Positions 1-44,720 of a DNA stretch of 44,720 nucleotides are shown piece after piece. Where the stretch lies: positions 1 through 44,720 of IMG/VR virus record IMGVR_UViG_3300033388_005222. The stretch is one strand, 5' to 3'. A program made the translations under genes and the position numbers. The stretch is from a virus. How positions within the stretch are numbered: the stretch's first letter is position 1; each line of letters starts with the position of its first letter. Below the pieces are notes generated by a model that saw nothing but the letters and a program-made list of their open reading frames with translations, had not been told where the DNA came from and made no database searches.

Positions 1-114
1 GTCTGCTCTGTATGTGGCTTGCAACGATGCGGACTGCTTCCAAGGGGCTGCAAAAAGCTCAAAAAAAGAAGCCGTAGAGGCCGCCGAAAAGCTTTTAGGC
101 CGTAAATTTGAGAG
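1..114. repeat. Left copy of 114-bp terminal direct repeat
   Basis: Bases 1-114 are identical to 44607-44720. The small gene beginning at 44290 reads without interruption through this repeat into its stop codon at 125-127, so the two ends join in the molecule. This is either assembler overlap of a circular or permuted genome, or a short physical terminal repeat; the sequence alone does not decide. Confidence 0.95.
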
Positions 115-127
115 AGTGCCAAAATGA
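2..127 (+). CDS. 3' part of junction-spanning small protein (RPEDF family)
   Basis: This is the end of the gene that starts at 44290; the frame begins at base 2 and stops with TGA at 125-127. The visible part reads SALYVACNDADCF and then a lysine- and glutamate-rich tail ending FERVPK. Two cysteines in the segment spanning the junction (CPVC, upstream at the right end) and two here could form a zinc knuckle. The stop overlaps the next ATG (ATGA), suggesting translational coupling. Function unknown. Confidence 0.75.
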   Translation, partial: SALYVACNDADCFQGAAKSSKKEAVEAAEKLLGRKFERVPK

Positions 128-657
128 AATCCCCAAGACGCTGGAAACGCCCTGAAGACTTCACCCTGCAAGAGGGTGTTTTTTACAATCTCTTGCAAAA
201 GGTAGAAGGTGGCCTAGCCCGGGAGCTGCCTCATAATTATAGCTGGTATCCGGGGGATGCCCAATTCCATTCAGGGGAGCAAGCCGTAGAAATGGTGGAA
301 GTTTTGGGCTTTGTTGAAGCTGACGGCACAAGCCCCGCCGAAGACTTCACTTTTTTGCAGGCCCCGGAGCTGAGCCCAAAAACCCGAGAGGAACCCCCGC
401 AGCCCCTGAGCATGTCAACCAAGATATTTTTCACTATGCTGTGCTGCTGCACTTTCTCTTGCGCTTATCTGGGAGTAGCTTTTATACACTCCCAGAGCAT
501 AAAAATTGCACAGACCTCGCAAGAACTCAAAGAAACCACCCGCAGCCTTGACGAGTGCCGCCGAGAGACGACCTTTGGCCGATGGGTTGCCCGAACTATC
601 TGTGAAGATAAAAACCCCGTGGCGGCCTGTACAAGGGCCGGGTACTTGGAGCCGTGA
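124..657 (+). CDS. RPEDF-family protein with C-terminal membrane anchor, unknown function
   Basis: This is a 177-aa protein. The N-terminus (W-K-RPEDF-x2-QEG, about residues 7-19) matches the N-termini of the two genes immediately upstream (43979 and 44290, across the contig junction), so it is the third member of a tandem family. Unlike the other two it carries a hydrophobic, cysteine-rich segment at about residues 98-120 followed by a polar, possibly coiled stretch, which suggests a single-pass membrane protein. The start overlaps the upstream stop (ATGA) and the end overlaps the next start. No known domain is recognised. Confidence 0.75.
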   Translation: MKSPRRWKRPEDFTLQEGVFYNLLQKVEGGLARELPHNYSWYPGDAQFHSGEQAVEMVEVLGFVEADGTSPAEDFTFLQAPELSPKTREEPPQPLSMSTKIFFTMLCCCTFSCAYLGVAFIHSQSIKIAQTSQELKETTRSLDECRRETTFGRWVARTICEDKNPVAACTRAGYLEP

Positions 658-869
658 TGCTTACTCAATCCCAAGCCCACAACGCCCTAATGCGGGAGGT
701 GGTAAGAAGCGCAGCCTATACTACAGGAGGTCACCGGGCATGGCTTCGGGCCGTAGCAGGCAACCTGCCACCCCGGGGCGTGCAAAAGCACCTTGAAGTC
801 GTGGCCGAAATGCAGCCCCTGAAATACCGCAAGCATCTTCTACGGCAGATTATTGGAGAGTTGAAATGA
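654..869 (+). CDS. Small hypothetical protein (71 aa)
   Basis: This is a short basic, probably helical protein with no recognised family. It begins ATG ATG, overlapping the upstream stop, and ends overlapping the next start at 866, so it belongs to the tightly coupled plus-strand cluster. A longer reading frame in another phase (506-796) crosses two coupled junctions and is disfavoured. Confidence 0.6.
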   Translation: MMLTQSQAHNALMREVVRSAAYTTGGHRAWLRAVAGNLPPRGVQKHLEVVAEMQPLKYRKHLLRQIIGELK

Positions 870-1165
870 TTAATATCTTGCGAATGCCCATAACCGGCAA
901 CTTCCCCCCGAATACCGGATGCATGAAGCCCCGATTCCCGAAAAGGCGCACCCGGCGGGGCCCGGTTTCGGTGCCATATTTGGACCTAGACCCCGGAACA
1001 TACTTGATAACATTCGTCAAAGAGTCGGGGGCCAAACGGACGTACAAGCTAAAAACTTGGATAAGCCCTTTCGGTTGGGCCTATGAGCTTAATGCAGTGA
1101 AACCACAGCCGGACGGAAAACCCACACCACAACTTGTAAATGATTTGCTGCGGGAGCTGAAATGA
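866..1165 (+). CDS. Hypothetical protein (99 aa)
   Basis: This 99-aa protein has a basic N-terminal third (RFPKRRTRRGP near residue 24-34) followed by alternating hydrophobic residues suggestive of a small beta domain (DPGTYLITFV, RTYKLKTW). No family is recognised. It overlaps neighbours by 4 nt at both ends, supporting translation as part of the operon. Confidence 0.65.
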   Translation: MINILRMPITGNFPPNTGCMKPRFPKRRTRRGPVSVPYLDLDPGTYLITFVKESGAKRTYKLKTWISPFGWAYELNAVKPQPDGKPTPQLVNDLLRELK

Positions 1166-1341
1166 TTTCAGAAAAGGCGCTAGAGGCCCTAGAAGAGCAC
1201 GGGCTAGAGGTGCAAGGCCCCCGCTATGTTAGTCCCGCAGATAGGGTTTTCATAACACGCCATGGTGAAATGGTGAAGATAACGCACTTTCACAGGGTAG
1301 AGGCTTTTCTACTGAGCCTCCCGCCCAAAGGACAAAATTAA
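1162..1341 (+). CDS. Small hypothetical protein (59 aa)
   Basis: ATG at 1162 overlaps the stop of the previous gene (ATGA) and the frame stays open for 59 codons to TAA at 1339-1341, one base before the next ATG. The protein starts MISEKALEALEEHGLEV, probably helical, and continues with a short beta-like part (DRVFITRHGEMVKI). Coupling at both ends is the main support. Function unknown. Confidence 0.65.
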   Translation: MISEKALEALEEHGLEVQGPRYVSPADRVFITRHGEMVKITHFHRVEAFLLSLPPKGQN

Positions 1342-1342
1342 G

Positions 1343-1795
1343 ATGAGCTTTTTAGAGTATCTCGCCCCCCACATCGGTTTTTTAATCTTGGGCATCCTAA
1401 TAGGCTTTAGATTAGGCTTTGGTGACAGCATCCCACAACCCCCGCCCTGTGGCACCTATGCGCAGCTCTTAGAGGTCTCGAAAATCACGCCCCAAGAGTA
1501 TCTTGATGGCAAGAGGCCTCACGATGTGATTTTGACTCATGCACAATGTGACCTCCTGCACGCCCCAGAGGGCTTTGTACACTCCACAGGAGGCACCTAC
1601 AAAGACGCAAGGGGCAATAGTTGGGCCAAAGTGGATGATAAGTGGGTAACGGTTAGCCCTCCACCTTATGATACTTTCGCGGTCTCCCTTAGCCCCGGGA
1701 CTTTCTTTTCCCGGCGGGTTTCGGGGTACTTGCTAACCTGTAACTTAACTGAAGACTCGCGGGCTATGTATTGCACCTATGGGGCTAAGAAATGA
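1343..1795 (+). CDS. Membrane-anchored hypothetical protein (150 aa)
   Basis: Residues about 8-28 form a single hydrophobic helix (IGFLILGILIGFRLGFG), followed by a proline-rich linker and a roughly 110-residue hydrophilic domain with several cysteines. This could be a signal anchor placing the domain in the periplasm. No known domain is recognised. It overlaps the next gene by 4 nt. Confidence 0.65.
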   Translation: MSFLEYLAPHIGFLILGILIGFRLGFGDSIPQPPPCGTYAQLLEVSKITPQEYLDGKRPHDVILTHAQCDLLHAPEGFVHSTGGTYKDARGNSWAKVDDKWVTVSPPPYDTFAVSLSPGTFFSRRVSGYLLTCNLTEDSRAMYCTYGAKK

Positions 1796-2043
1796 GAGTC
1801 TTAATAGAGGGTATTGGCACCTTTGACAGCATGTTTAAAGCCCGAAACTGCCCTCTGGTCTCGGGTTTTGTGTTGGGGCATAATGGCCGGGGTCGTGAAA
1901 TAGTGCTCACTCGTGCTATGGTGCAGTGTAGTGGTCTGAGCCCTAGCTTTATCGTCTATGCAGTCTCGAAGGCCTCCGGGAGCCTGCACAGGGTCGCAGA
2001 AGCCCCGGAGCCGCAGCTAGAATTTAACTTCAAAAAGGATTGA
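1792..2043 (+). CDS. Small hypothetical protein (83 aa)
   Basis: This is an 83-aa protein of unrecognised family that ends in a charged tail (LEFNFKKD). The start overlaps the upstream stop by 4 nt. An AAGGAT-type site in its last codons serves the next gene, which starts four bases downstream. Confidence 0.6.
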   Translation: MRVLIEGIGTFDSMFKARNCPLVSGFVLGHNGRGREIVLTRAMVQCSGLSPSFIVYAVSKASGSLHRVAEAPEPQLEFNFKKD

Positions 2044-2047
2044 GAGA

Positions 2048-2281
2048 ATGAAAACCCGAGATATTCACGGCAATGAAGAGCACACCCAAAACATAACCCC
2101 AGAGGCAATCCAGAAGGCCTTTGCAGACCCCAAGGTTAAAGATATTCAGGTTTATAAGGGGGCGGCGCCCACGACGAAGTTAGGTGTAAAAATTGCAAGA
2201 GAGAGAGCCCGGAAGCTAAACAAGAGCCTGAAACGCAAGGCCCACAGCCGAGCTAAAGCCGCACAGCGCCTGCACAAATAG
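2048..2281 (+). CDS. Small basic hypothetical protein, last gene of plus-strand block
   Basis: This 77-aa protein has an acidic/polar N-terminal half and a strongly basic C-terminal half rich in Lys and Arg (residues about 52-77), suggesting nucleic-acid contact. No family is recognised. It is preceded by an AAGGAT-like ribosome site. Its last 29 bases overlap the 3' end of the convergent amidase gene, marking the meeting point of the early and late blocks. No intrinsic terminator is evident between them. Confidence 0.65.
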   Translation: MKTRDIHGNEEHTQNITPEAIQKAFADPKVKDIQVYKGAAPTTKLGVKIARERARKLNKSLKRKAHSRAKAAQRLHK

Positions 2282-2807
2282 CGAGATTTGACAAGACCTT
2301 TAGCTTTACATCAAATAGAGAGACCAAATCCCCGACATTAGAACCAAAGCCCAGCTCTATGAGGGCGGTGGGCTGCCTAAACGCAGATAAAACCGCGTGT
2401 GAATCCCCCCACAGCTCGGGCGTTGCCCATCGGGCCCCGTCATAGCGTTTCAAGGGTGATGGCATAGCCGATGATATACTCTCACAGATTGATTTCATAG
2501 CTCGGTTGCCCGGGTAGGCCAGGCAAAGAGCCCCGTGCCAAGACCGATTGGCACTTGAGTTGACGTGTAGACTAAAAACGTGTGTTGCACCCCCTGAGTC
2601 TGCGATAGCGGCCCGCTCCGCAAAGCTTAGTGTTTTGTCATCAGAGCGGATTAAAAACGTCTCCACGCCGCAGGCTTCGGACATTTCCTGCAACAAGAGC
2701 CCACGCTCTAGCACATAATCTTTTTCCAACACGTCTCCAACGTCGCAGCCGTGGTTCGTGCCACCGTGGCCAAGGTCAAAAGCTAGGACTACTTTGGGGG
2801 TGCTCAT
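2253..2807 (-). CDS. N-acetylmuramoyl-L-alanine amidase endolysin (Amidase_3-like)
   Basis: This 184-aa protein likely cleaves the MurNAc-L-Ala bond of peptidoglycan as the phage endolysin. The N-terminus has the Amidase_3 zinc motif (AFDLGHGG), later SLHVNSS contains the second conserved histidine, and IELGFGSN near the C-terminus matches the catalytic-glutamate motif of the family. The start at 2807 is chosen because its ATG overlaps the upstream stop (ATGA). A 47-residue extension to 2948 lies wholly inside the neighbouring gene and has no motif. There is no signal peptide, so release probably depends on a holin. It is the last gene of the late operon. Confidence 0.85.
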   Translation of the reverse strand: MSTPKVVLAFDLGHGGTNHGCDVGDVLEKDYVLERGLLLQEMSEACGVETFLIRSDDKTLSFAERAAIADSGGATHVFSLHVNSSANRSWHGALCLAYPGNRAMKSICESISSAMPSPLKRYDGARWATPELWGDSHAVLSAFRQPTALIELGFGSNVGDLVSLFDVKLKVLSNLAICAGAVRL

Positions 2808-3343
2808 TTCGCAAGCTCCGCAGATGAGGCCCCACCGATACGCACACCGGCGTAGTTTGCTTTCCGGCGTAAAGTGCGCAAAAGGCCCTTGAAGCCTAGC
2901 CACCGGCGCACAAAAAAGCCCGGGTCTTTGGGTTGGTACATCGGCCAAGACACGGCCAGCACGTCGCTATAGAGGCAATCAAACCACTTGCGGCACCGGT
3001 CATGGTTTTTTAGCACGCGGTCTTGTATGCAATTAGGGACGGGTTGCCCGATGGCCCCCGCCTTGAGCATTTCATAACCCCCATCGTGAAGAGCAGAGGC
3101 TAGCAGGTTCCGCATATCGTCAAAGGTCGGGCCCGACGGGTCAAAGAGCATACCCTTATGTAGGGTCAAGACACCTTCGGGGCTGATAGAGGCTCCCAAG
3201 GTGCCTACGAGGTGAATCGGGCGCAACTCGGTCGGAAACTCGAAGTCTTTTGTAACACGGTACTTGCCCTTGCCTTTTGTGCCGTTAACCTTTTCAAAGT
3301 GCAGGCCATGCACCACAAAAGAGTTTTCTAAATCGTAGTGCAT
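2804..3343 (-). CDS. DUF1353-family protein in lysis region
   Basis: This 179-aa protein has a central motif (DPSGPTFDDMRNLLASALHDGGYEM) that resembles the DUF1353 signature in which a D-x-S/A-x-P stretch is followed by a conserved ALHD. This family is common beside phage lysis and tail genes; its biochemical role is unproven. I prefer ATG at 3343, with GGGAG five bases upstream, over an in-frame GTG at 3349. It overlaps the amidase start by 4 nt. Confidence 0.7.
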   Translation of the reverse strand: MHYDLENSFVVHGLHFEKVNGTKGKGKYRVTKDFEFPTELRPIHLVGTLGASISPEGVLTLHKGMLFDPSGPTFDDMRNLLASALHDGGYEMLKAGAIGQPVPNCIQDRVLKNHDRCRKWFDCLYSDVLAVSWPMYQPKDPGFFVRRWLGFKGLLRTLRRKANYAGVRIGGASSAELAK

Positions 3344-3456
3344 AACCACTCCCAGAGCCTTCTCAAGAGACTTTTGCGGTAGGTCAAACTATAGTTGCTG
3401 CGGTATTTCTTCGGAGCTACCAGCAGAGCCCGGCGCCCGGAGCCCTTGCCATTCAT
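3328..3456 (-). CDS. Tiny basic protein (42 aa)
   Basis: ATG at 3456 overlaps the stop of the upstream holin-like gene (ATGA) and reads 42 codons to TAG at 3330-3328, running 16 nt into the next gene. The product is very basic (MNGKGSGRRALLVAPKK, then a tail ending LRRLWEWL). It fills what would otherwise be a 109-bp gap in a densely packed operon, which favours it being real. Function unknown. Confidence 0.5.
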   Translation of the reverse strand: MNGKGSGRRALLVAPKKYRSNYSLTYRKSLLRRLWEWLCTTI

Positions 3457-3701
3457 TTGGGGATTCTACGCAGAATCTCTTTTATGTCCGAGTTCTGCTC
3501 ATCTAACCGCCCGTGGATATTCTCAAGAGCTTGCCCGAAAAGTTCTTTTTGCGCGTCGATTCGGGCGTGTAAGGCCTTGTGTTCAGCGTCGGCAAGCTCT
3601 TTATTCATGGCCCGCCGGGGGGAGAATACGGCGCCAAGCCCCCCGCCCCCCAAAAGAATAGCCATAGCTCCGGCTATATTCGTTAGAAGGTCTGATTCCA
3701 T
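3453..3701 (-). CDS. Putative holin / small membrane protein with coiled coil
   Basis: This 82-aa protein has a short N-terminal periplasmic-type stretch, one hydrophobic glycine-rich segment (residues about 8-27, IAGAMAILLGGGGLGAVF), a basic boundary (SPRRA) and a long charged helix predicted as coiled coil. This resembles single-span phage holins or antiholins (class III/DUF-type) beside endolysins. The start at 3701 gives MESDLL; an extension to 3776 enters the upstream gene. It lies directly upstream of the DUF1353 protein and amidase. The holin role is inferred from topology and position only. Confidence 0.6.
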   Translation of the reverse strand: MESDLLTNIAGAMAILLGGGGLGAVFSPRRAMNKELADAEHKALHARIDAQKELFGQALENIHGRLDEQNSDIKEILRRIPK

Positions 3702-3705
3702 TGGA

Positions 3706-4281
3706 TTACTCCACCTGGTCAAGGGCCTGGATAACGAGCCCGTTTTCAACGTCTTGCAAAAAAGTGGCTGAATCATTCACGACTTTGACCACGACAATAG
3801 AATAATAGGCAGCCCCCTCTTTTCGGATAGCCACGGCCCTTGGGGCCTCCCCGGGGGGTATGCCGTGCACTAGAGTCAGATATTCAATCCAACATTGCCC
3901 GGCCTGCCAGAGCACAGGGCGCCTTTTTAGGGGCTCCGGGTAGGTCTCCGCAGTGGAGACATGCCTATTGCCTGCGAGGTATTGAGCCGCCCGTGCTTCA
4001 GCTGTGGCGGTTTTTTGCTCTGTGCCATCGGCCATAGAGCCCTTTTCGTAACGGATAACCCGATAGGTTAAAATCCCTCCGGGCAAGGTCTCGGGGTGGG
4101 TGTAGCCCACGCATTCAACGGCCTTCGCAACACCTCCTGTGATAGTCCCTAGCTCCACTTCTGGGAGCTTTTTGGTGTAAATCATATCCCCGACGTTGGC
4201 CGCCGAAACCATGAGAGCTATTGAGGGGATAGAGAAACCTGCGAGAATGAGCAGAGCGCCCTTGAGGGTGAGTGTTTTCAT
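3706..4281 (-). CDS. Exported or membrane-anchored hypothetical protein
   Basis: This 191-aa protein starts MKTLTLKGALLILAGF, with two lysines and then a hydrophobic run to about residue 28, typical of a Sec signal or signal anchor. The rest is a soluble domain with two cysteines (near residues 57 and 129) that could form a disulphide in the periplasm. No known domain is recognised. It lies between the exported virion-region protein at 4284 and the holin candidate. It could be a spanin-like or superinfection protein, but nothing in the sequence shows this. Confidence 0.6.
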   Translation of the reverse strand: MKTLTLKGALLILAGFSIPSIALMVSAANVGDMIYTKKLPEVELGTITGGVAKAVECVGYTHPETLPGGILTYRVIRYEKGSMADGTEQKTATAEARAAQYLAGNRHVSTAETYPEPLKRRPVLWQAGQCWIEYLTLVHGIPPGEAPRAVAIRKEGAAYYSIVVVKVVNDSATFLQDVENGLVIQALDQVE

Positions 4282-4283
4282 AA

Positions 4284-5303
4284 TTATCTCCCGAGATTCC
4301 AGCCGGTTTCCTGTTGGAGGGTGATATTGTTCGTGGTCGTGCTCTTCACATAGAGCCGGACCTCATCAGTTGTGCTCATAAAAAACTTACAGTGGATACC
4401 GTCCGCCCCCCAATCCGTGCCTGTCATTGTTCTATACGTCTTGCACCCATACCCAGTTTCAAGGTGTCCCCCGTTAGCGTAAGCAACAAACTCAATGATA
4501 TCGTTGTTCTGAGCCTTGAAATGTAGCATTCCTGAGAACAAGTACAGGCCGTAAGCTGCCCCCGCATCGGGCGTGAGGCCGCCGTCGCTTACGGTGTAAT
4601 TGTTAGTGAGAGCCACTATTTCATCTATATTCGCGTCTGTGACTTCCTCCCAGACACCGGGGGTTACGCCACTCATATCAATCACGATATCCGCGCTTGC
4701 GTAGACCCCGCCCCCGGTGGATTTCATATCCCCATCCATCAATGGCCACCAGCCGGTGTTACCGACGCCGCTCTTTTTAGTATAGAATGTCGGAATGCCG
4801 CCGCCGCCATCTAAGCGAATATAGGCAGAGCCAACGGTCGCAGTCTTGGACCCCTCGGGCGTGCCTGTGCCGGAGTAAATGCAGGCTGTTACCGTGCCTA
4901 GCCGCCCATTTGCGTTATCTGTCCAGCAGTATCCGGTATCTTTTCCGCTCCAAAATTCATCACCCGCCCCAACCCAGACGCCATTTGAGTTCGCTCCGCC
5001 GTCTCCGCTGGCGTTGATTGAATTAACGTTTACGTCATACTCCGTTGCTTTCGCCAGATTGTAGAAATGGACGGAACTCCCCGTGAGCCACAAGCAAGAC
5101 CCCTCTGTTCCCACTTCGTTCTGGATGCAGAAAACACCGTCTTCCGGGTTGGTCATCTTGCCCCATGGCGTCCCATCGACAGGGAAAGTAGCAGCGCCCC
5201 CGCCGCCCGAGCTATAGCTGTAATCCAGACCCCCGGGAAAATTGGCCTGCACCGCAAAGGGAGTTAAAAAAAGAAGTACTGCAAATAGAATATAAGGTCT
5301 CAT
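4284..5303 (-). CDS. Secreted beta-rich protein of tail-fibre region
   Basis: This 339-aa protein starts at ATG 5303, overlapping the previous stop (ATGA). Residues 1-20 (MRPYILFAVLLFLTPFAVQA) are a textbook Sec signal peptide with a VQA cleavage site. The mature part is rich in Gly, Thr, Tyr and Trp with several cysteines, consistent with beta-structure as in fibre or surface proteins. A signal peptide is unexpected for a virion component, since virions assemble in the cytoplasm. It may therefore act at the cell surface. No named family is recognised. Confidence 0.65.
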   Translation of the reverse strand: MRPYILFAVLLFLTPFAVQANFPGGLDYSYSSGGGGAATFPVDGTPWGKMTNPEDGVFCIQNEVGTEGSCLWLTGSSVHFYNLAKATEYDVNVNSINASGDGGANSNGVWVGAGDEFWSGKDTGYCWTDNANGRLGTVTACIYSGTGTPEGSKTATVGSAYIRLDGGGGIPTFYTKKSGVGNTGWWPLMDGDMKSTGGGVYASADIVIDMSGVTPGVWEEVTDANIDEIVALTNNYTVSDGGLTPDAGAAYGLYLFSGMLHFKAQNNDIIEFVAYANGGHLETGYGCKTYRTMTGTDWGADGIHCKFFMSTTDEVRLYVKSTTTNNITLQQETGWNLGR

Positions 5304-5830
5304 AGCCCCGCCTGCACCGTGTAAACGTCGATAATATCCCCGGCAGCCCCACCCGTGCTCCAAAATCGAAACCTCATATCAGGGGCTTCGACCGTGTAAA
5401 TCACTTGCCAGACCTCGACCGTTGCTGATGTGGTGTCCCATTCGGGGGTTAGATTGGTCATCACCATGGCAGGCAGAGAGGCCGTGCCCCCTTGCTGAAT
5501 ACCCCAAGGGCCGGTTGCGGCGTTGGTAGTCGAGCCATCAACTTCCATAAAGACCTTGGTTGCCGTCGATTTCGTAAACTTGATAATCAGAGTGACCTTT
5601 TTAAGGCCCCGGGCGTTAATCGTGAAAGATGCACACCCAGGGTCTGCGAGCAACTCGAAGCCCGCAGAGCAGGCCACGTTAATGGGCTCTGCATCAAGGG
5701 CTTTTTCAGTGCCTGAGTTGTCCTGAGTGCGGGAGATTTGGGCACTATAGAGGGGGCTGGTGCCTTGGGCGTGGCTCAGGGCGGGCAAGAGAAAGAGGAA
5801 AGCAAGGGACAGATAAAAAGATTTAAACAT
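5300..5830 (-). CDS. Secreted protein, probable beta-sandwich
   Basis: This 176-aa protein starts MFKSFYLSLAFLFLLPALSHA, a clear Sec signal with S-H-A cleavage site, followed by a roughly 155-residue beta-rich domain with two cysteines in the mature N-terminal half (ACSAGF, DPGCASF). It lies immediately downstream of the beta-propeller fibre and is coupled to the second secreted protein at 4284. The pair may work together outside the cytoplasm; function unknown. Confidence 0.65.
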   Translation of the reverse strand: MFKSFYLSLAFLFLLPALSHAQGTSPLYSAQISRTQDNSGTEKALDAEPINVACSAGFELLADPGCASFTINARGLKKVTLIIKFTKSTATKVFMEVDGSTTNAATGPWGIQQGGTASLPAMVMTNLTPEWDTTSATVEVWQVIYTVEAPDMRFRFWSTGGAAGDIIDVYTVQAGL

Positions 5831-5833
5831 GTT

Positions 5834-6880
5834 TTAGCTCCTTAAAGATGAATGGATTTCGCCGTTATCCCCGACGAATAGAATTACACCGGCCCCAAAG
5901 GATGCGGCGTTTTTGGCGTAATCGTAGGTAATGGAGGTGTCTCTAAAATCCACCCCATCTCGGGAAGTAGTCATAATGGGGTGTGTCATGGGATTTCCGG
6001 GGCAAGCGAAAAAATCCCCCGTCCACAGAATACAATGTATAGAGGGGGCGGCACCCCCCGGGGTGTAGGCAAGGGCCCATGTAGCCCCCGCGTCCTCCGA
6101 TATATAAATACTAGAGGTAATGACGAACAGCCAAACCCCCGCCCCATACTCCACGTCGGTTATAGTTACGGGGCCTAAGCCACTTACACCGGGGGACCAA
6201 GTAACCCCTGTTGGGGACGTGATAACGGTGCCCAAGTCCCCAACGGTAACGAAAGAGGTCAGGTCAGTGGCGCAAGCTGTTAAGTCATCAGAAGTCCCGC
6301 TCGTTCTAGTTGTCCATGCAGCACCATCGGGAGAGGTGATAACGGTACCAGAGCCCCCCACGGCTACCAATAGGGACCCATTGTGGGCTATGTCTTCAAG
6401 GGCATTTCCCGTGCCGCTCGTTTCTGCATTCCAAGTAACGCCAGTGGGGGACGTAAGAACAACGCCGCCCGAGCCCACCACCACGAATTGAGCCCCATCC
6501 CACACCGAGCCTTTTAAGTCTGTGGCAACTCCGCTTGTTCTGGCAGTCCAAACTTTGGTTTGTCGGTCAGAGGTCCAAATAAGCCCCCCAGCACCTACGG
6601 CTACCCAAGTATCCACCCCGTCAAAAACCGAATCGTAGACGATAGCGGTGGATGGCGTGGTTTCTAAATTCAAGTTGCTGGCAATGGCTGCCACCATAAG
6701 GGCTACACCCCCATCTAGGTGAGTAATCCACTCCTGGGTTAGCTTAAAAAGCCAATTCATATAGGCCGAAGAGACGGGTTTTTCCTCATTAGTCCAGCCT
6801 AGAGCTTTCTTTGCTGCATTGGGCTCCGTGTTATTGGCCCCACCTGTATTCCAAAGGGGTAATTTATCAGGTCTGCTCAT
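5834..6880 (-). CDS. Tail fibre with beta-propeller-like repeats
   Basis: This is a 348-aa protein. The first ~50 residues (MSRPDKLPLWNTGG...) resemble the baseplate-attachment N-terminus of many phage fibre proteins. From about residue 80 it has at least five repeats of roughly 38-42 residues with the pattern V-x-VG-x2-G-x-V-x-TS-x2-G-x-x-W, a WD40/BNR- or Ycf48-like propeller blade pattern. Such folds bind glycans or surface ligands, so this is the best candidate receptor-binding protein. It sits directly after the gpI-like baseplate gene, the usual fibre position. Confidence 0.75.
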   Translation of the reverse strand: MSRPDKLPLWNTGGANNTEPNAAKKALGWTNEEKPVSSAYMNWLFKLTQEWITHLDGGVALMVAAIASNLNLETTPSTAIVYDSVFDGVDTWVAVGAGGLIWTSDRQTKVWTARTSGVATDLKGSVWDGAQFVVVGSGGVVLTSPTGVTWNAETSGTGNALEDIAHNGSLLVAVGGSGTVITSPDGAAWTTRTSGTSDDLTACATDLTSFVTVGDLGTVITSPTGVTWSPGVSGLGPVTITDVEYGAGVWLFVITSSIYISEDAGATWALAYTPGGAAPSIHCILWTGDFFACPGNPMTHPIMTTSRDGVDFRDTSITYDYAKNAASFGAGVILFVGDNGEIHSSLRS

Positions 6881-6881
6881 T

Positions 6882-7430
6882 TTAGGCCGTAGTCCCTAGC
6901 CCGCTCGAATCATCAAAGCCGACCGTTGAAGAGTCAAAAGCAAAGGGGGTTGCTGCCGGGGTCCAGGTTACGAGTCCCCGAACTCCGGCAAGCTTCGCCT
7001 TTTTTATGATTTCAGCTATAGAGGCCCCCGCACTCTGGGTGCCCTGCATATAAACATTGAAGGCCGCCGGGAATTCTTCGGAAAGCACAAGAGAGACCCC
7101 TACATCTTTTAGGGTCTCTAGCACCGTTAGAACATCAAGCGCCGTGCCTGAAGACCTGAGCACAGTAATTTGGGCTTGTAGCCACTTGCGGTACTCTGCA
7201 TCTGTGCGGCCTAGTCTCTCCACTTGCAGGATGCGGCCTAGCACGTCTAATTGAGCCCCAACGGCGGCGTCGGGTAGCCTCAAGGTGAGCAAGTCCCAGA
7301 GCATATCCTCAAGGGCTTGTATCTCAACCAAAAAGGCAGAGATTAGGGCCGTAGTCTTGGCCTTACCTTTGAGTTGCTGCAACAAAAAGGCAACGCCGCT
7401 TGCAGCATGGTTGGATACGTAACTAAGCAT
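6882..7430 (-). CDS. Baseplate protein, gpI / Mu gp48-like (DUF2612-like)
   Basis: This is a 182-aa protein. The segment LPDAAVGAQLDVLGRILQVERLG followed by D-x-E-Y-R-x-W-L-x-A-Q-I and RSSGT matches the DUF2612/gpI-like proteins that close the baseplate wedge and connect fibres. The start overlaps the gpJ stop (TAATG), and the fibre gene follows. The role as periphery of the baseplate follows from family and gene order. Confidence 0.75.
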   Translation of the reverse strand: MLSYVSNHAASGVAFLLQQLKGKAKTTALISAFLVEIQALEDMLWDLLTLRLPDAAVGAQLDVLGRILQVERLGRTDAEYRKWLQAQITVLRSSGTALDVLTVLETLKDVGVSLVLSEEFPAAFNVYMQGTQSAGASIAEIIKKAKLAGVRGLVTWTPAATPFAFDSSTVGFDDSSGLGTTA

Positions 7431-8590: not shown

Positions 8591-8591
8591 T

Positions 8592-32531: not shown

Positions 32532-32542
32532 AGGAAAAAGAA

Positions 32543-33938: not shown

Positions 33939-33942
33939 TAAA

Positions 33943-34217: not shown

Positions 34218-34246
34218 TAGAGAATGCCAACCTGGAGACGACAAAC

Positions 34247-34528: not shown

Positions 34529-34544
34529 CAACGGACAACGAAAA

Positions 34545-36947: not shown

Positions 36948-36958
36948 CTAGACGCAAC

Positions 36959-36997: not shown

Positions 36998-37046
36998 TAG
37001 CCTCACCATGAGCTAGCACCCTATAGAAGTACAAAGGAAAAAGCAA

Positions 37047-37256: not shown

Positions 37257-37420
37257 AAAATCTCCTTATATTGGCCTCTTTTTCGTGCCTCATCATGGTG
37301 CGGTTCGCCACCTTAGACCCAGTAATAGAGGATGCACTGTGGGCTGGGTATATCTGTGCCACTCTAGGCTTTTTAGCCTATGAGCTTATGCCGGAAGCCG
37401 ATAAAAATGAACCTTCTTGA
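37253..37420 (+). CDS. Small two-helix membrane protein (55 aa)
   Basis: GTG at 37253 overlaps the previous stop (GTGA) and reads 55 codons to TGA at 37418-37420, running 14 bases into the helicase gene. Two hydrophobic segments (LLILASFSCLIMV and WAGYICATLGFLAYEL) are separated by an acidic loop (LDPVIEDA). It may be a membrane protein for lysis control or superinfection exclusion; role unknown. Confidence 0.6.
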   Translation: MKNLLILASFSCLIMVRFATLDPVIEDALWAGYICATLGFLAYELMPEADKNEPS

Positions 37421-39215
37421 CTCTATGCTAGCCAAAAACGGCCAGACCCGGGCGGACTTTGCCAAAAACTCAAACCTCGGCAAGGTATTCCGCAAGCGGG
37501 GGGTTTCCAGAACTGCCGAAACCGACCGGATAGCCCGCTTGCCCTCCCGCCGGTGGCAAGACGACCAGCAAGCCCTTACGGCGTTGGGGCTAGCTTTACG
37601 GCACACCTTTGGTAAGGCGGGCTGTGATATGACCTTAAGGCCGCCACAGGTCGCAGCACTTGAGGAGCTGCACGACCTCGAAGGCCTGATGGCGCCCATT
37701 AGGGTGGGCGGGGGCAAAACACTTATTTCTTTTTTGGGAGCCTCTATACTGCAATGCAAGCGCCCTCTGCTTTTGGTGCCCGCAAAGCTGCGGGACAAGA
37801 CCCACAGGGAGTATAAAGAGCTTTCCAAGCAATGGCTCTTGCGCCCTGTCAAGGTGCTATCGTATGAAATGCTGGGCCGGGAGCGGGGAGAAGCCATCCT
37901 AAGAGAGTACGCCCCCGATTTAATCATAGCCGACGAAGCCCACCGCTTGAAAAACCGCAAGGCCGCAGTTACCCGAAGGGTCTCCCGCTGGTTCAAAGAG
38001 CACCCTGAGACCCACTTTATGGGCATGTCTGGCTCTTTTATGGTGAGGGGCATTAAAGACTATGCCCACCTTGTAGCATGGGCCATGCCGGAGGGCCTAC
38101 GCCCCATCCCGCAAACATGGGGGGAATTAAACGATTGGGCCGAAGCGATAGACCCAAACATCAAACCTGAGGCGAGGTTGCAGCCGGGGGTATTGCTGCA
38201 ATATGCTTCGGATTCAGAGCTTGAAAAGTTGGCTAAAGGTGAAATTGACTCTTTGACCGTGGCCCGGGGGGCATACCGCCGCCGCTTCACCTCTACCCCC
38301 GGCGTGGTGGCTACTGAGGAAGGTTTTGAGGGGGCCAGCCTGCAAGTCTATAGCATCGACCCCGGAATGGATGAAAAGCCTCTAGCGGTGCTAAAAGGAG
38401 TGCGAGACTTGTGGGAAATGCCCGATGGTTGGGCATTTATGGAAGCTGCGGAAATGTGGAGGCACGCCCGGGAATTGGCCTGTGGTTTCTGGTACAAATG
38501 GGACCCCCGCCCGCCGCCGGATTGGATGCTGGCCCGCAAAGAATGGGCAGCTTTTGCCCGGGATGCACTGTCCAACAACCGCCGGGGCCTAGACTCAGAA
38601 ATGCAGGTAGCTCGGGCCTGTGCCCGGGGGGAGCTTTCCGGGGTTGAATATCAGGCTTGGAAGAGTATAAGAGATAGCTTCAAGCCTAATTCCGTACCCG
38701 TTTGGGAGGCTGAATCCGTTGTAAATGCCGCAGCTGATTGGCTCAATTCCGGGGACTCCCCGGGGATTTGTTGGGTAGAACATACCGCCTTTGGTGTGAA
38801 GCTGGCAGAAAAGACAGGGCTTCCATATTTTAGGCAAGGGGGGCAAGCCAACGGCGTGGCTATAGAGGATGCCACGGGCCCCATTATCGCTAGTATAGCG
38901 AGCAATTCCGAAGGCCGGAACCTGCAAGGGTGGGCCCGTAATCTGTTAACATCCCCGATGGCGGGGGGCTCAGCCTATGAGCAGCTCTTAGGACGTACCC
39001 ACCGTGATGGGCAAGAGGCTGACGCCGTAACCTTCGGGCTTAACCTCGCAGTGATAGAGCAATGGGCCGGGGTACAAAAGGCTCTGCAAGAGTCCGTGGC
39101 GATAGAGCACACTACAGGACAGGCTCAAAAGCTGCTTTATGCGGACCTTGATATTTTGACCAAAGCTGAGGTAGAGGCTTTGATAGATAGAAAAGATGCA
39201 CGCTGGCTAAAATAA
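37407..39215 (+). CDS. SF2 (SNF2/DEAH-type) helicase
   Basis: This is a 602-aa protein. Helicase motifs: LRPPQVAALEEL (Q-like), RVGGGKTL (I), LLLVPAKLR (Ia), ADEAHRLKN (II), GMSGS (III) and QLLGRTHRDGQEAD (VI). It may unwind DNA or displace proteins in phage replication or recombination. The start ATG 37407 lies within the preceding gene; an extension to 37380 has no ribosome site of note. Long insertion between motifs III and V (residues about 210-480) with Trp-rich segments is unusual. Confidence 0.8.
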   Translation: MNLLDSMLAKNGQTRADFAKNSNLGKVFRKRGVSRTAETDRIARLPSRRWQDDQQALTALGLALRHTFGKAGCDMTLRPPQVAALEELHDLEGLMAPIRVGGGKTLISFLGASILQCKRPLLLVPAKLRDKTHREYKELSKQWLLRPVKVLSYEMLGRERGEAILREYAPDLIIADEAHRLKNRKAAVTRRVSRWFKEHPETHFMGMSGSFMVRGIKDYAHLVAWAMPEGLRPIPQTWGELNDWAEAIDPNIKPEARLQPGVLLQYASDSELEKLAKGEIDSLTVARGAYRRRFTSTPGVVATEEGFEGASLQVYSIDPGMDEKPLAVLKGVRDLWEMPDGWAFMEAAEMWRHARELACGFWYKWDPRPPPDWMLARKEWAAFARDALSNNRRGLDSEMQVARACARGELSGVEYQAWKSIRDSFKPNSVPVWEAESVVNAAADWLNSGDSPGICWVEHTAFGVKLAEKTGLPYFRQGGQANGVAIEDATGPIIASIASNSEGRNLQGWARNLLTSPMAGGSAYEQLLGRTHRDGQEADAVTFGLNLAVIEQWAGVQKALQESVAIEHTTGQAQKLLYADLDILTKAEVEALIDRKDARWLK

Positions 39216-39219
39216 GATT

Positions 39220-39268
39220 CCCCCAATTAAGGGGTAAAGAGCCCGAAAGGGCATAAGAGCCGAAAGGC
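39220..39268 (+). promoter_or_regulatory. Three small hairpins in leader of SSB-like gene
   Basis: CCCC-AATTAA-GGGG (39221-39234), GCCC-GAAA-GGGC (39241-39252) and GCC-GAAA-GGC (39259-39268) follow one another directly before the ribosome site and ATG at 39283. Two carry GNRA-type GAAA loops. This looks like a structured mRNA leader that may set expression of the abundant SSB-like protein. Confidence 0.5.
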
Positions 39269-39282
39269 AAGAGAGAAAGGTA

Positions 39283-39762
39283 ATGAGTTTATTTAATGGT
39301 ATGGGAAGTGCAAGCGCTACAGGTTCAGGCGTCTATTTTAACTCTAATCACAACTACCTTTGCAAGGTGCTGTGCCTCAAAATCATCCAGAGCCGCAGTA
39401 ACGATAATATGTTCGTGGCAGAAATGGAAGTTATCGAGAGTGATGACCCCGAAAGGGGCCCAGGGTCTTGCCCTGCATGGGTTGTAAATTTCAAGCACGA
39501 TAGTGCCTTGGGCAATATCAAGGGCCTTTTGGGGGCTCTGAATGGTGTTAACCCCAACGAAGTTGAGGCCCTCAATGCCCTTTTTTCTGAAGTAAATGAA
39601 AAGGGGGAAACGGTGGATATTTCGGTTGACATTTCAGAGTACGCGGTATCAGAGGCCAATCCCTTGGCAGGTAACACAGTGCGCTTGCGCACCGAAGGCA
39701 TAAAAACCCGGGCCGGTGGGGATTTCACCAAACACCTCTGGCGACCCACCGACGAGGCATAA
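39283..39762 (+). CDS. Single-stranded DNA-binding protein-like (OB-fold)
   Basis: This 159-aa protein resembles phage SSB-like proteins that start M-S-L-F-x-G, followed by Y-L-C-K-V, FVAEMEVIESD, and a GNIKGLLGAL helix. AGAAAGG lies before the ATG. It is flanked by a helicase and a polymerase and followed by a terminator, consistent with an abundant replication protein. Acidic tail is short (PTDEA). Confidence 0.65.
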   Translation: MSLFNGMGSASATGSGVYFNSNHNYLCKVLCLKIIQSRSNDNMFVAEMEVIESDDPERGPGSCPAWVVNFKHDSALGNIKGLLGALNGVNPNEVEALNALFSEVNEKGETVDISVDISEYAVSEANPLAGNTVRLRTEGIKTRAGGDFTKHLWRPTDEA

Positions 39763-39781
39763 GACAGCCCACCCCGTAAGC

Positions 39782-39811
39782 AGAAAAGGGGGCCCACGTG
39801 CCCCCTTTTCT
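39782..39811 (+). terminator. Rho-independent terminator between SSB-like and polymerase genes
   Basis: AGAAAAGGGGGC (39782-39793) pairs perfectly with GCCCCCTTTTCT (39800-39811) around a CCACGT loop. The stem contains the A- and T-runs, so it can act in either direction. The polymerase start follows 14 bases later, so most polymerase transcripts must read through. Confidence 0.85.
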
Positions 39812-39825
39812 ATGGAGCCTACACC

Positions 39826-41718
39826 GTGAAAACCTACGCAATCGATACAGAAACGGACCTAATCCGGCTAGGCTGCAAAGCCCCCCCGCTGGTATGCGTC
39901 CAAATCACCGAAGACACGGCCCCCGACGAAGGGGTTATCTTTTTACACTCAGAGCCCGGACTAAAAGGTTTTATAAAGTCGCTGCTTTTATCGGCCCTGA
40001 AGGGCCAAGCCCGGCTAATCTTTCACAATGCTGCTTTCGATTTGGCCGTGTTCGCAGCTAAATGGCCCGACCTTATGCCGCTAATCTTCGCCGCCTTGGC
40101 CAAGGATGGGGCCATAACTGATACCATGATAAGGCAAAAGCTTTTAGATATAGCCGCCGGGGAGTTTCGCGGCAAATATGGCCACGACGGCACCTTTATA
40201 AAATACGGCTATGGCTTGGGGCATTTATCAGAGCGCCATCTTGGTATGGTACTGGATAAAACCTCGAAATGGCGAACCGGCTATTTCGAACTAGCCGAAA
40301 CCCCGGTTACAGAATGGCCGGCAGAGGCCCGAGAGTACGCCGAAAATGACCCCGTGGCCACCTATGGGGTTTGGGCCCACCAAGAAAACAATCTTGCAGA
40401 CTACCCCTCAGGTGTCCTAGACGACGAGCCCCGGCAAGTGCGCAAGGCTTGGGCCCTGTTTTTGGCCGAAGCTTGGGGTATGAAAACAGACCCCGAAGCG
40501 GTGGACGCACTAGAAGCCGAAGCCGTGGCCGAAATAGTGCGCCTGCAAGCCTACTTGCACGGGCTAGGGCTCTTGACCCTCAAAAAAGATGGCAGCTATA
40601 GCCGCAAGCTCAAGCTAGCCCGAGAGCGCATGATAGCAGCCTGTGAGGCGTCGGGGGTGGAAGTACCCACAACTGATAAAGGCAACGTAAAATTAGACGC
40701 CGAAGCCATGGCCCTAAGCGGGGATGTGGGGCTGATTGCTCTGCAAGAGTACGGGGTAGCACAAAACATCCTCAGCAAAGATGTTACGGCCTTGAGAAGC
40801 CCTATTATACATCCCCGGTTTGATTCGCTTGTGGGTACGGGCCGCACGTCTGCAAGTGGCTACAACACGCAAAACCCACGCAAAAAGGTGGGTGTTCGTG
40901 AGTGCTTCGTGCCCCGAAAAGGTAAGGTCTATCTTAACTGTGATTATGACAAGGCCGAATTACACACCCTTGCCGAGACCTGCTTAGGCCTTGTAGGCTA
41001 TTCCAGGCTTGCTGAGGCCCTGAATGCCGGGCGAGACCCTCACCTAGACTACGGGGCTCTCATAGAGAGCATTGACCTCGAATGGGCCCGGGAAAACCCC
41101 AAACACCCCACGGTTAAGCAGGCCAGGCAACGTGCAAAAGCTGGAAACTTCGGTATCCCCGGAGGTATGGGGGCCAAGGGCTTTCAGGCCTACGCAAAGG
41201 GCTACGGGCTTGAATTAGACATGACAGAAGCCCGGCATATTTTCGACTCCTATTTTGAGGCATGGCCAGAAGTCCGGGAGTTTCACACGTGGATTAAAGC
41301 TCAGTGTACAGGCTACGGTGGAGAGGGCCTCTTTCAAATGCCCTACTCAGGGCGCTACCGCGGCGGTGTGCGTTTCACCCAAGCGGCAAACCTCTTTTTT
41401 CAGGGCCCCGCCGCCGATGGTGCAGGCTTGGCCCTATTCGCCGTGGCCTATGCCCAATACTGTGACACTGAGAGCCCTCTTTTTGGGTCCCGCACGGTCA
41501 ATTTTATTCATGATGAATTAATGCTAGAGGTAGACGAAGGCAAGGCCGCCGCCGCCGCCGCAGCAGAATTAGAGAGAGTAATGGTGGAAGAATTCACCCG
41601 AGTAGTGCCCAACGTGCCGCCCCGGGCCACGGCTTGTCTTTCCCGGCGCTGGTCAAAGGGTGCGGAGCCTGTTTTCAATGCCGAAGGCACCTTGATACCG
41701 TGGGAGCCTGAGTTATGA
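39826..41718 (+). CDS. Family A DNA polymerase with 3'-5' exonuclease
   Basis: This is a 630-aa protein. GTG start at 39826 (MKTYAIDTETD) with GGAG upstream. Exonuclease: DTET (residues 7-10), FHNAAFD (about 66-72) and AENDPVATY. Polymerase: motif A NCDYDKAELHTLA (Asp about 373), motif B RQRAKAGNFGIPGGMG (about 435-450) and motif C NFIHDELMLEV (about 557-567). In motif B the residue at the position of Klenow Tyr766 is Gly, a form known in some phage polymerases, while the Phe762 equivalent is kept. No 5'-3' nuclease domain. Confidence 0.9.
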   Translation: MKTYAIDTETDLIRLGCKAPPLVCVQITEDTAPDEGVIFLHSEPGLKGFIKSLLLSALKGQARLIFHNAAFDLAVFAAKWPDLMPLIFAALAKDGAITDTMIRQKLLDIAAGEFRGKYGHDGTFIKYGYGLGHLSERHLGMVLDKTSKWRTGYFELAETPVTEWPAEAREYAENDPVATYGVWAHQENNLADYPSGVLDDEPRQVRKAWALFLAEAWGMKTDPEAVDALEAEAVAEIVRLQAYLHGLGLLTLKKDGSYSRKLKLARERMIAACEASGVEVPTTDKGNVKLDAEAMALSGDVGLIALQEYGVAQNILSKDVTALRSPIIHPRFDSLVGTGRTSASGYNTQNPRKKVGVRECFVPRKGKVYLNCDYDKAELHTLAETCLGLVGYSRLAEALNAGRDPHLDYGALIESIDLEWARENPKHPTVKQARQRAKAGNFGIPGGMGAKGFQAYAKGYGLELDMTEARHIFDSYFEAWPEVREFHTWIKAQCTGYGGEGLFQMPYSGRYRGGVRFTQAANLFFQGPAADGAGLALFAVAYAQYCDTESPLFGSRTVNFIHDELMLEVDEGKAAAAAAAELERVMVEEFTRVVPNVPPRATACLSRRWSKGAEPVFNAEGTLIPWEPEL

Positions 41719-42194
41719 TTCTATCAATAGACCCCGGAGTGCATAAAACGGCTTGGGCCCTGTGGGGCAAAGATGGGCTACAAGAGGCAGGGTACCACGG
41801 AACCGACGCCGTGGGGAGGTTTTTCCCAGAGTATGGAACCCACCTTTTTGTTACTGTGGAAGTCCCCCAAATCTATAAACACTCAAAGGGGGACCCTCAA
41901 GACCTTATAAATCTAGCCTTTGCAGCGGGGCAAGCCTCTGGGAATAGGGCAATCTTTAAGGTGGACCCCAAAAAGTGGAAGGGGCAGGCCCCGAAAACTA
42001 AAAAGCTCGAAGATTATCTTATCCACAAATGGAACCTGAGAGCCCTAGAGGACGCAGAGCAAGGCGTTTATTTACAGGCCCTTTCAGGTATAGCGGCCTC
42101 TTTAAGGCACAATATCGCCGACGCCGTAGGCATAGGCCTTTGGAAACTACAAAGGGGGCATTACGCCCGGGGGCTTCAAAATGCCAAGCCCTGA
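41715..42194 (+). CDS. RuvC-like Holliday junction resolvase
   Basis: This is a 159-aa protein. MILSIDPGVHKTAWALW carries the first catalytic Asp (D6), VTVEVPQ the Glu (E49), and HNIADAVGIGLW the last Asp (D136), the RNase H-like layout of RuvC. It would resolve branched DNA before packaging. It overlaps the polymerase stop by 4 nt. Confidence 0.85.
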   Translation: MILSIDPGVHKTAWALWGKDGLQEAGYHGTDAVGRFFPEYGTHLFVTVEVPQIYKHSKGDPQDLINLAFAAGQASGNRAIFKVDPKKWKGQAPKTKKLEDYLIHKWNLRALEDAEQGVYLQALSGIAASLRHNIADAVGIGLWKLQRGHYARGLQNAKP

Positions 42195-42375
42195 TAATAG
42201 GATTATGGCAGAGCTTACACAAGTTCTACATTATGGGGCTTGGACGGTTGAGGAGCTGGCAACGCTTTTTCAAATGCCAAAAAGAAGGGTATATTATTAC
42301 CTCGTGGCCGTAAAAAGGACACCTTTAGATTTGGTTCGTACTAATAAAGGGTACGAAATCCGCCGGGCGGGTTGA
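42181..42375 (+). CDS. Small helix-turn-helix protein (64 aa)
   Basis: WTVEELATLFQMPKRRVYYYLVAVKR is a helix-turn-helix pattern. ATG 42181 lies within the resolvase end; an alternative ATG at 42205 gives 56 aa. It may be a regulator acting with the Xre protein encoded next. Operator unknown. Confidence 0.65.
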   Translation: MPSPDNRIMAELTQVLHYGAWTVEELATLFQMPKRRVYYYLVAVKRTPLDLVRTNKGYEIRRAG

Positions 42376-42399
42376 CTTTGAATAAACAAAGCGTATAAG
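42372..42399 (+). promoter_or_regulatory. Sigma70-like promoter of Xre gene
   Basis: TTGACT (42372-42377), 16-base spacer, TATAAG (42394-42399). It is unlike the conserved TTGTGT phage promoters and closer to the consensus. The -10 ends 8 bases before the ATG at 42408, so the transcript would begin at or next to the start codon. AAGG overlaps the -10 and could serve as ribosome site only in longer transcripts. Confidence 0.7.
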
Positions 42400-42407
42400 G
42401 TTATAGT

Positions 42408-42644
42408 ATGACTATTGGAAAAAGAAAGCTAAACGAAGCTCTAGCCCGTAAGGGCTGGACTTTGGCCCAAGCCGCCGAAGCCCTTGACACGGCCTCAGAG
42501 GGCGGGGCCATTAGGACCCAGAATGTTATGTTTTGGCGAAAAGGCCGCCGTACCCCCACCCTAGCGCAAGCCGTTGCGCTGCAAAACGTTTTTGGCATAA
42601 GCCCCAAGGCGTGGTTCAAAAAGGACGAAGAAAATGAGACTTAA
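42408..42644 (+). CDS. Xre/Cro-type helix-turn-helix regulator
   Basis: This is a 78-aa protein. MTIGKRKLNEALARKGWTLAQAAEALDT, then FWRKGRRTPTLAQAVALQNVFGI is the Xre HTH layout. With its own promoter and leaderless-type start it may be an early regulator, perhaps binding the promoter palindromes. No integrase or lytic/lysogenic switch partner is visible. It overlaps the next gene by 11 nt. Confidence 0.75.
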   Translation: MTIGKRKLNEALARKGWTLAQAAEALDTASEGGAIRTQNVMFWRKGRRTPTLAQAVALQNVFGISPKAWFKKDEENET

Positions 42645-43689
42645 AAGACGAAAGCCGGGCGCTACCTATCCTCTGGATGTTTGCGCTGTGTCGAAGTGCC
42701 CCCACCCTACCCTGGTTGTGGTGGGTGAAGGGGTCTCTTTCCCCGCAGAAAAGGGAGAAGTACCTCTCTGCGACTTACACCACGCCGAAGACCAAGGCCA
42801 AACGGCCACGCTAGTAACCCCGGAGGGCTTGCAAGAGACCCCCCCGCCCACCTATGCAGGCCTGAGCCTTAAACCTTTAGCACAGGGTGGACGGTACCTT
42901 GTGGACGTTTGTGCTGTGTCGGAGTGCTATGCCCCCATGGGTATCGTGCTAACTGCTGGGGCTTTCTTTCCGCTTGATAAGGGAGTAATCCCACTTTGTT
43001 GGCCCCATGATTTTGAGGCACAGCACCTTGCTTTGGGCTTACAGGAGACGGCCCCCGCAGCTTTAGAGCTACCGCCCCCGGAGGTTATCCCCACCGAAGA
43101 AATCCCATCCCCGGAGGCTATGGCGCTTGAAAAAGCGGAATTCGCCAAAGAGGAGCTTGTAGGGATTAAGTCTCTTGAGATTGACAGCCAAGAGGATTTG
43201 GATTTCGCAAACGAAATCTTGGCCGAAGTCAAAAAGAAATTCAAGGAAATCGATGCCGAAGAAAAAGGTGTAACCCAGCCCATTAATGCCTCTTTAAAGA
43301 AAATCCGGGATTGGTTCCGGCCCGCAAAAACAGCATACACCGAAGCTGAAAAGATTCTAAAGAGCAAGATTCTCGCAGGTATCGAAGCGATTCAGGCCCG
43401 ACAAGATGCCGCGCTTTTAGCCCTGCAAGAGGCCCACAAAGAGCAGAACGTAGCTGCAACGGCTTCGGCTTTGGCCGTGGTGCAAGAGTCGGCCATAGAG
43501 CAGCCCTCCAATGTCTCAGTGATTAAAAAATGGGCTTATCGGGTTGTGGATTTTGCCCTAGTGCCCCGGGAGTATTGTGCCCCCTCCCCTGAGCTTTTGA
43601 AGGCCGCCGTTAAGGCCTCCGATGGTACGATTAAAATCCCCGGGGTTGAGATTTTCGAAGAAAGTACTTTATCCCAAAGAAAATTATAA
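42634..43689 (+). CDS. Hypothetical protein: duplicated Cys/His domains plus phage coiled-coil domain
   Basis: This is a 351-aa protein. Two N-terminal copies of a roughly 45-residue module (YPLDVCAVSKC...PLCDLHH at about 12-50, and YLVDVCAVSEC...PLCWPHD at about 88-128) keep C-x4-C and C-x2-H and may bind zinc. Residues about 170-260 are coiled coil (EILAEVKKKFKEID, PAKTAYTEAEKIL). The C-terminus (VPREYCAP, then IPGVEIFEE) matches a common phage protein of unknown function often linked to recombination genes. The promoter P5 element lies in its last codons. Confidence 0.65.
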   Translation: MRLKRRKPGATYPLDVCAVSKCPHPTLVVVGEGVSFPAEKGEVPLCDLHHAEDQGQTATLVTPEGLQETPPPTYAGLSLKPLAQGGRYLVDVCAVSECYAPMGIVLTAGAFFPLDKGVIPLCWPHDFEAQHLALGLQETAPAALELPPPEVIPTEEIPSPEAMALEKAEFAKEELVGIKSLEIDSQEDLDFANEILAEVKKKFKEIDAEEKGVTQPINASLKKIRDWFRPAKTAYTEAEKILKSKILAGIEAIQARQDAALLALQEAHKEQNVAATASALAVVQESAIEQPSNVSVIKKWAYRVVDFALVPREYCAPSPELLKAAVKASDGTIKIPGVEIFEESTLSQRKL

Positions 43690-43734
43690 AATAAAGGCTC
43701 TGGGGGTTGTGTATAAATATACAGGGTGTATAAA
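43661..43734 (+). promoter_or_regulatory. Conserved phage promoter P5
   Basis: AAAGTACTTT lies at 43661-43670 inside the end of the preceding gene. TTGTGT (43707-43712), a 16-base spacer with the GTATA-AA-TATAC palindrome, and TATAAA (43729-43734) follow. Drives the 43768-to-2281 cluster across the contig junction. Confidence 0.85.
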
Positions 43735-43767
43735 TAAAACATACCAACTAACCCGGAGCCGCACACC

Positions 43768-43998
43768 ATGCCTGAACACAATACAAACCCCCTAACAAAG
43801 AATAACGTCACCGGCATTTTGGGCGCTATAGGTTGCATCCCTGACTTTCAAGAAGTCTCACAGGGCTGGACGCGGGTGTTCATCCACGAACCTCAGGAAA
43901 AAGGGCTGAATGTGACGAGGGCGGGGATGAGAGGCTATCCTGCTTTGCTGCTACTCTCGAAAGCTGCGGGGGTGCGCTATGAAAACCGAATTTTTTAA
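43768..43998 (+). CDS. Small hypothetical protein (76 aa)
   Basis: This is the first gene after promoter P5, with CGGAG upstream of ATG 43768. The protein starts MPEHNTNPLTKNN and contains a short beta-like centre (GWTRVFIHE). It overlaps the next gene by 20 nt. No family is recognised. Confidence 0.65.
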   Translation: MPEHNTNPLTKNNVTGILGAIGCIPDFQEVSQGWTRVFIHEPQEKGLNVTRAGMRGYPALLLLSKAAGVRYENRIF

Positions 43999-44293
43999 AG
44001 GTTGGATGCGGCCCGAAGACTTCCCCCCGCAAGAGGGCATATCATACCAGATAGTGGTGGAGGGTTTGGGGGAGGGGCCAACGTGCAAAATACTGAGGGA
44101 CTTCAAGTACTATATAGGAGAGAATGTTTTTGTGTCCGATATACAAACAGAGAGTGCTAAAAGCATCTTAGGCTATAAAGTGCAGTCACCTTTTGAGTAT
44201 GAGGTGAGTGATTTCGAATTTCTAGAGCCCGATATCGATTGGCGTAAAACGGTGGAGGCTCAAAAGCGCCACGTCTGCGGGGGTGAGCTATGA
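43979..44293 (+). CDS. RPEDF-family small protein, copy 1
   Basis: This is a 104-aa protein. GWMRPEDFPPQEGISYQ near the N-terminus is shared with the next gene, followed by a related pattern (YY-x-x-x-NVF, then GYK, FEFLEPDIDW). Copy 1 is shorter than copy 2 and ends without its cysteine-rich tail. It overlaps its neighbour by 4 nt (ATGA). Function unknown; probably a small beta domain. Confidence 0.7.
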   Translation: MKTEFFKGWMRPEDFPPQEGISYQIVVEGLGEGPTCKILRDFKYYIGENVFVSDIQTESAKSILGYKVQSPFEYEVSDFEFLEPDIDWRKTVEAQKRHVCGGEL

Positions 44294-44720
44294 AAACCGA
44301 ATTTTTTAAGGGCTGGATGAGGCCCGAAGACTTCCCCCCGCAAGAGGGGTTATTATATCAGCTTATTGCAGAGGTTCCGGGTACGGGCTACGAGTTAGAG
44401 CGGGATTGCAACTACTACAAAGCCCGCAACGTTTTCGAGTCAGAAGTCAGAACCCTAGCCCCATCAAAAGTCCTTGGGTATAAAGCCCAAGAGGGGGCAT
44501 ACCACAAAAAAGAGGCCTTCGAATTCCTAGAGCCCTCTATTGATTGGACAGAAACCGTGAGGGCCCAGAGGTGCCCTGTATGTGAAACCGTTTTGATTCT
44601 GGACGTGTCTGCTCTGTATGTGGCTTGCAACGATGCGGACTGCTTCCAAGGGGCTGCAAAAAGCTCAAAAAAAGAAGCCGTAGAGGCCGCCGAAAAGCTT
44701 TTAGGCCGTAAATTTGAGAG
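44290..44720 (+). CDS. RPEDF-family small protein, copy 2 (5' part; ends at 127)
   Basis: Starts MKTEFFKGWMRPEDFPPQ, nearly identical to copy 1 at the first 20 codons, and keeps the FLEPSIDW motif. It then continues with a four-cysteine tail (CPVC, then C-x5-C across the junction) that may bind zinc. The frame continues at base 2 of the window and stops at 127, giving about 180 aa. It is the middle member of three tandem genes. Confidence 0.75.
   Translation, partial: MKTEFFKGWMRPEDFPPQEGLLYQLIAEVPGTGYELERDCNYYKARNVFESEVRTLAPSKVLGYKAQEGAYHKKEAFEFLEPSIDWTETVRAQRCPVCETVLILDVSALYVACNDADCFQGAAKSSKKEAVEAAEKLLGRKFE
44607..44720. repeat. Right copy of 114-bp terminal direct repeat
   Basis: Identical to bases 1-114. 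It lies wholly within the coding sequence of the junction-spanning gene, so it is not an intergenic end structure. Confidence 0.95.

Follow-up and report, generated by a model that had tools for sequence, protein, structure and literature searches.

The window analysed here, i.e., the whole stretch of 44,720 bases, represents a whole virus record and raises the question of what could have removed nearly every GATC from it. The record presents exact 114-base terminal direct repeats (Table 1), suggesting that it is complete. A scripted exact count found exactly one GATC, at the position reported in the initial annotation, as compared to 123.6 sites expected under a maximal-order Markov model (observed/expected 1/123.6 = 0.008), 173.8 sites expected from base composition alone, and 151 ± 9 sites expected in coding DNA from synonymous-codon shuffles, which took in 63 predicted genes (93% of the sequence). 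The initial annotation had expected >100 sites, in agreement with the range of 124 (Markov) to 151 ± 9 (shuffles). The observed/expected ratio is <0.1 with >15 sites expected, which places GATC among eliminated sites, and the Poisson P for the deficit is approximately 1e-52; chance and base composition were thus rejected as causes by the Markov, shuffle, and Poisson analyses. As also stated initially, neighbouring words are common (GATA 185, GATT 200, and GATG 121 on the + strand). Only GATC, among all 256 tetramers tested, presented a near-zero count; the next-lowest tetramers, CGCG and GAAC/GTTC, presented ratios of about 0.6 in the Markov analysis and of 0.39 and 0.43, respectively, in the codon shuffles. 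The initial description of the loss as specific to GATC therefore holds among tetramers but does not extend to six-base palindromes, several of which were purged as well (CTGCAG, 0 sites; GAGCTC, 0; CGGCCG, 1; CCGCGG, 1; GCCGGC, 3; GCATGC, 1).

Table 1. Positions of features in the 44,720-base window.
Feature	Position	Strand	Basis
Terminal direct repeat (114 bases), left copy	1..114		sequence comparison of ends
Stretch without GATC	1..21157		exact count
Promoter/operator-like element (five copies in total) preceding the orphan gene	20996..21021	+	near-identical repeats
Orphan gene, acidic 91-aa protein (pI 4.2), holds the lone GATC	21066..21341	+	ORF call
Only GCATGC of the window, adjoins the lone GATC	21152..21157		exact count
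Sole GATC of the window	21158..21161		exact count
Stretch without GATC	21162..44720		exact count
C5-cytosine DNA methyltransferase (predicted)	28883..29911	+	PF00145 E 4e-38, TIGR00675, phrog_116 E 6e-62
Lar-like restriction alleviation protein (predicted)	34545..34730	+	PF14354 E 9e-10, above cut-off
Terminal direct repeat (114 bases), right copy	44607..44720		sequence comparison of ends

The deficit was found in every codon phase (0 sites vs. 74.5 expected in phase 0, 0 vs. 8.4 in phase 1, and 1 vs. 68.5 in phase 2) as well as in non-coding DNA (0 vs. 8.3), and synonymous shuffles and codon-context controls showed that it exceeds the constraints of codon usage and amino acid sequence. Aspartate before a codon starting with C was encoded by GAC in 121 of 121 cases and never by GAT, as compared to 52–67% GAT before other bases, and the codon-context control identified no comparable switch before C for Asn, His, Tyr, Phe, or Cys. 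Leucine following GAT was encoded by TTR in all 30 cases, while leucine following GAC was encoded by CTN in 40 of 54; isoleucine following G was encoded by ATT (96), ATA (45), and ATC (1) among 142 cases, and Gly or Arg codons of the form NGA were never found directly before TC in the codon-context count. Codon bias was thus rejected as the cause by these controls, as was a depletion confined to some flanking contexts, all contexts being empty. GATC was lost through several base-change routes, most of them silent, a pattern that indicates selection against the word itself and not a single chemical decay route; selection against GATC almost certainly acted in this window.

The purge belongs to the lineage of this phage. 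We compared 53 related loci, comprising IMG/VR loci and Aeromonas phage 56, linked to the phage through terminase, primase, polymerase, or sheath genes; their GATC ratios ranged from 0.47 to 1.78, and none was purged or near zero. One of these loci (L001) has seven head and tail genes in common with the phage, in the same order, with a GATC count of 124/137. Relatives in virion genes are unpurged, which places the cause outside the shared genes and recently in this lineage. Few protein relatives were found for the phage, its terminase relatives are spread across many phyla, and no nucleotide match among phages was found for bases 1–25000. One Vampirovibrionales contig with a related terminase (L058) presented no CGCG, as compared to 46 expected.

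The predicted cytosine methyltransferase of the phage offers one candidate cause, as it could act at GATC, with sites decaying through deamination (GAT5mC to GATT). GATT/AATC is the most over-represented tetramer in the Markov analysis, and 18 viral loci with methyltransferase relatives presented low GATC ratios (0 to 0.94; median 0.39), as compared to a median of 0.97 in the 53 terminase-related loci (P 4e-9), a comparison that is confounded by host and lifestyle. However, deamination cannot produce the changes from GAT to GAC or from NGA to NGC or NGG that make up much of the loss, and decay at methylated bases fails to account for a loss that took the several chemical routes identified above; in addition, the closest methyltransferase relatives retain about half of their GATC. 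The Bacteroides caccae phages BC679P2 and BC679P5, which are 93% identical to each other, resemble the phage described here in being purged (2 and 4 GATC vs. approximately 95 expected, in genomes of 36–38 kb) and, for BC679P2, in encoding a related cytosine methyltransferase; they differ in that they have been cultured, on B. caccae, and in that their hexamers are less affected. BC679P2 carries an intact methyltransferase gene while BC679P5 carries only a remnant, yet both are equally purged, suggesting that the methyltransferase is unlikely to be the cause. Taken with the other base-change routes and the half-retaining relatives, this pair makes deamination a highly improbable explanation. 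A search for control lytic phages through the Bacteroides phage DNA polymerase returned no matches. Three IMG/VR contigs with a distant methyltransferase relative (L068, L069, and L074) presented 0 GATC, as compared to 26, 49, and 34 expected, respectively.

The loss almost certainly reflects escape from some host enzyme targeting GATC. The agent was probably a host restriction enzyme that cleaves GATC, most likely an orthodox Type II enzyme with the specificity of MboI, DpnII, or Sau3AI; we infer that it cut unmodified GATC. Under this explanation, a tailed-phage lineage would long have met hosts cleaving DNA at GATC, and point mutants that had lost GATC sites would have survived until essentially none were left. 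The purging of several hexamer palindromes is expected for a phage facing several Type II systems, and the phage encodes other predicted anti-restriction genes (i.e., the methyltransferase and the Lar-like gene), in support of a host-restriction reading. On this view, several restriction systems have acted on the phage, most strongly at GATC. Published surveys place site elimination (ratio <0.1) chiefly among non-temperate dsDNA phages and at orthodox Type II sites (PMC6286503). Under the restriction reading, the phage described here would be mainly virulent; no integrase was found among the proteins searched, while its HTH regulator (42408–42644) would be compatible with a temperate lifestyle. 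The initial annotation had proposed selection by restriction or by a GATC-dependent process; selection is strongly supported by the shuffles and codon contexts, and a GATC-cleaving restriction system is the most likely cause. A GATC-specific nuclease encoded by the phage itself, destroying host DNA while its own genome was purged for immunity, could reside among the many early genes without family assignment. However, the nuclease-like genes found were a PD-(D/E)XK exonuclease (phrog_69), a resolvase, and a weak exonuclease-like match (42634–43689), and such a nuclease would leave the purging of other palindromes unexplained, so that we regard this origin as very unlikely.

DpnI-like or Mrr nucleases, Dam-directed mismatch repair, and phosphorothioate defences at GATC would leave the same trace as a restriction enzyme cutting unmodified GATC. 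For an agent that reads methylated or hemimethylated GATC, i.e., mismatch repair with nicking by MutH or a DpnI/Mrr-type nuclease acting on GmATC, there are precedents in both bacterial and archaeal viruses. GATC is scarce in enterobacteriophages and wholly lacking in phiX174, a loss for which Dam and MutH have been proposed as the agent (PMC5014478, citing McClelland 1984 and Deschavanne and Radman 1991); those phages differ from the one described here, in which several other palindromes are also purged. In the haloviruses HF1/HF2, SH1, PH1, and HHIV-2 (PMC7230728, PMC3622292), GATC is likewise wholly absent and other palindromes are partly lost, and in HF1, SH1, and PH1 this absence coincides with Mrr targeting of GmATC; these viruses differ in their archaeal hosts and in their loss of CTAG, which presented a normal frequency in the window (ratio 0.90). 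A methylation-reading agent leaves the parallel loss of PstI-, SacI-, EagI-, and SacII-type hexamers unaccounted for, and no Dam-type gene was found among the proteins searched; we therefore consider such an agent rather unlikely.

The moderate depletion of GAAC/GTTC is not explained by a GATC enzyme. This word, with 114 sites vs. 266 expected in the codon shuffles, ranks second in depletion among tetramers by codon-shuffle z-score and first among non-palindromic ones, and is low in five of six phases. As phosphorothioate modification is known at both GATC and GAAC/GTTC cores, a Dnd- or Pbe-type defence marking either of them, instead of an ordinary restriction enzyme, could have driven their joint loss. 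However, GAAC/GTTC is only halved, CGAG, GCGA, and CGCG drop similarly in the codon shuffles, and a phosphorothioate system leaves all but a few per cent of sites unmarked, making site loss no obvious escape. Codon-context bias may suffice for the GAAC/GTTC drop, and a phosphorothioate defence is very unlikely as the selecting agent.

The purge described here thus represents a very clean new case of a known viral anti-restriction strategy and not a new type of system. Non-temperate dsDNA phages surveyed by Rusinov et al. 2018 (PMC6286503) have likewise lost almost every copy of a palindromic Type II site (ratio <0.1, >15 expected); as compared to those cases, the ratio of 0.008 is extreme but not unique. 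The enzymes that a virus has faced leave a lasting record when site loss is nearly complete, and such a record can therefore hint at the host of a metagenomic phage, which in this case would be expected to carry GATC-, PstI-, SacI-, EagI-, NaeI-, and SacII-type systems.

Site loss also serves as a rough clock for gene arrivals, represented here by the orphan gene with its GATC and the methyltransferase gene with hexamers purged elsewhere. The initial annotation correctly placed the lone site in a plausible + strand ORF between two minus-strand head genes; these encode head-morphogenesis and protease proteins, and the ORF is convergent with the former. The orphan protein presented no Pfam, NCBIfam, or PHROG match and no relatives in any collection searched, and its AlphaFold model, built without relatives, is unusable (pLDDT 37). 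The same interval in the syntenic locus L001 contains a different, unrelated gene. That the orphan gene had recently arrived, as first proposed, is in keeping with its codon usage (second most atypical of 63 genes; z = -3.3) and with the adjoining sole GCATGC; against this, only 0.34 GATC would be expected in the gene even without selection, it has no relatives, and it is preceded by the phage's own promoter-like element. Of the features of a moron, the opposite strand and atypical codons are seen, while the promoter comes from the phage's own set of repeated elements. Recent arrival is plausible from these sequence features, its dating resting on one GATC site. Of the 18 sites left for hexamers purged elsewhere, 4 lie in the methyltransferase gene (29023, 29126, 29288, and 29744; P 7e-5, a post hoc value, as the hexamers were picked after seeing the data), which has no GATC (5.1 expected). 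As a lead, this suggests that the gene arrived once the hexamers had been purged, and that its GATC sites were either missing on arrival or the first to be removed.

The promoter-like element upstream of the orphan gene is one of five near-identical elements, TTGTGTATAAATATACARGGTGTATA, all on the + strand (20996–21021, 30490–30515, 32178–32203, 34190–34215, and 43707–43732). Each can be interpreted as a promoter whose hexamers, TTGTGT and TATAAC/TATATT, are 16 bases apart and flank a perfect dyad, TGTATA-NN-TATACA; the dyad is perhaps the operator of the HTH protein. The element was absent from all other IMG/VR contigs. No RNA families or tRNAs were found in the window. No gene deviates more from typical codon usage than the Lar-like gene. 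A near-palindromic sequence, TAAAAGTACTTTT, was observed at 20784, 20959, and 30462, upstream of promoter-like elements.
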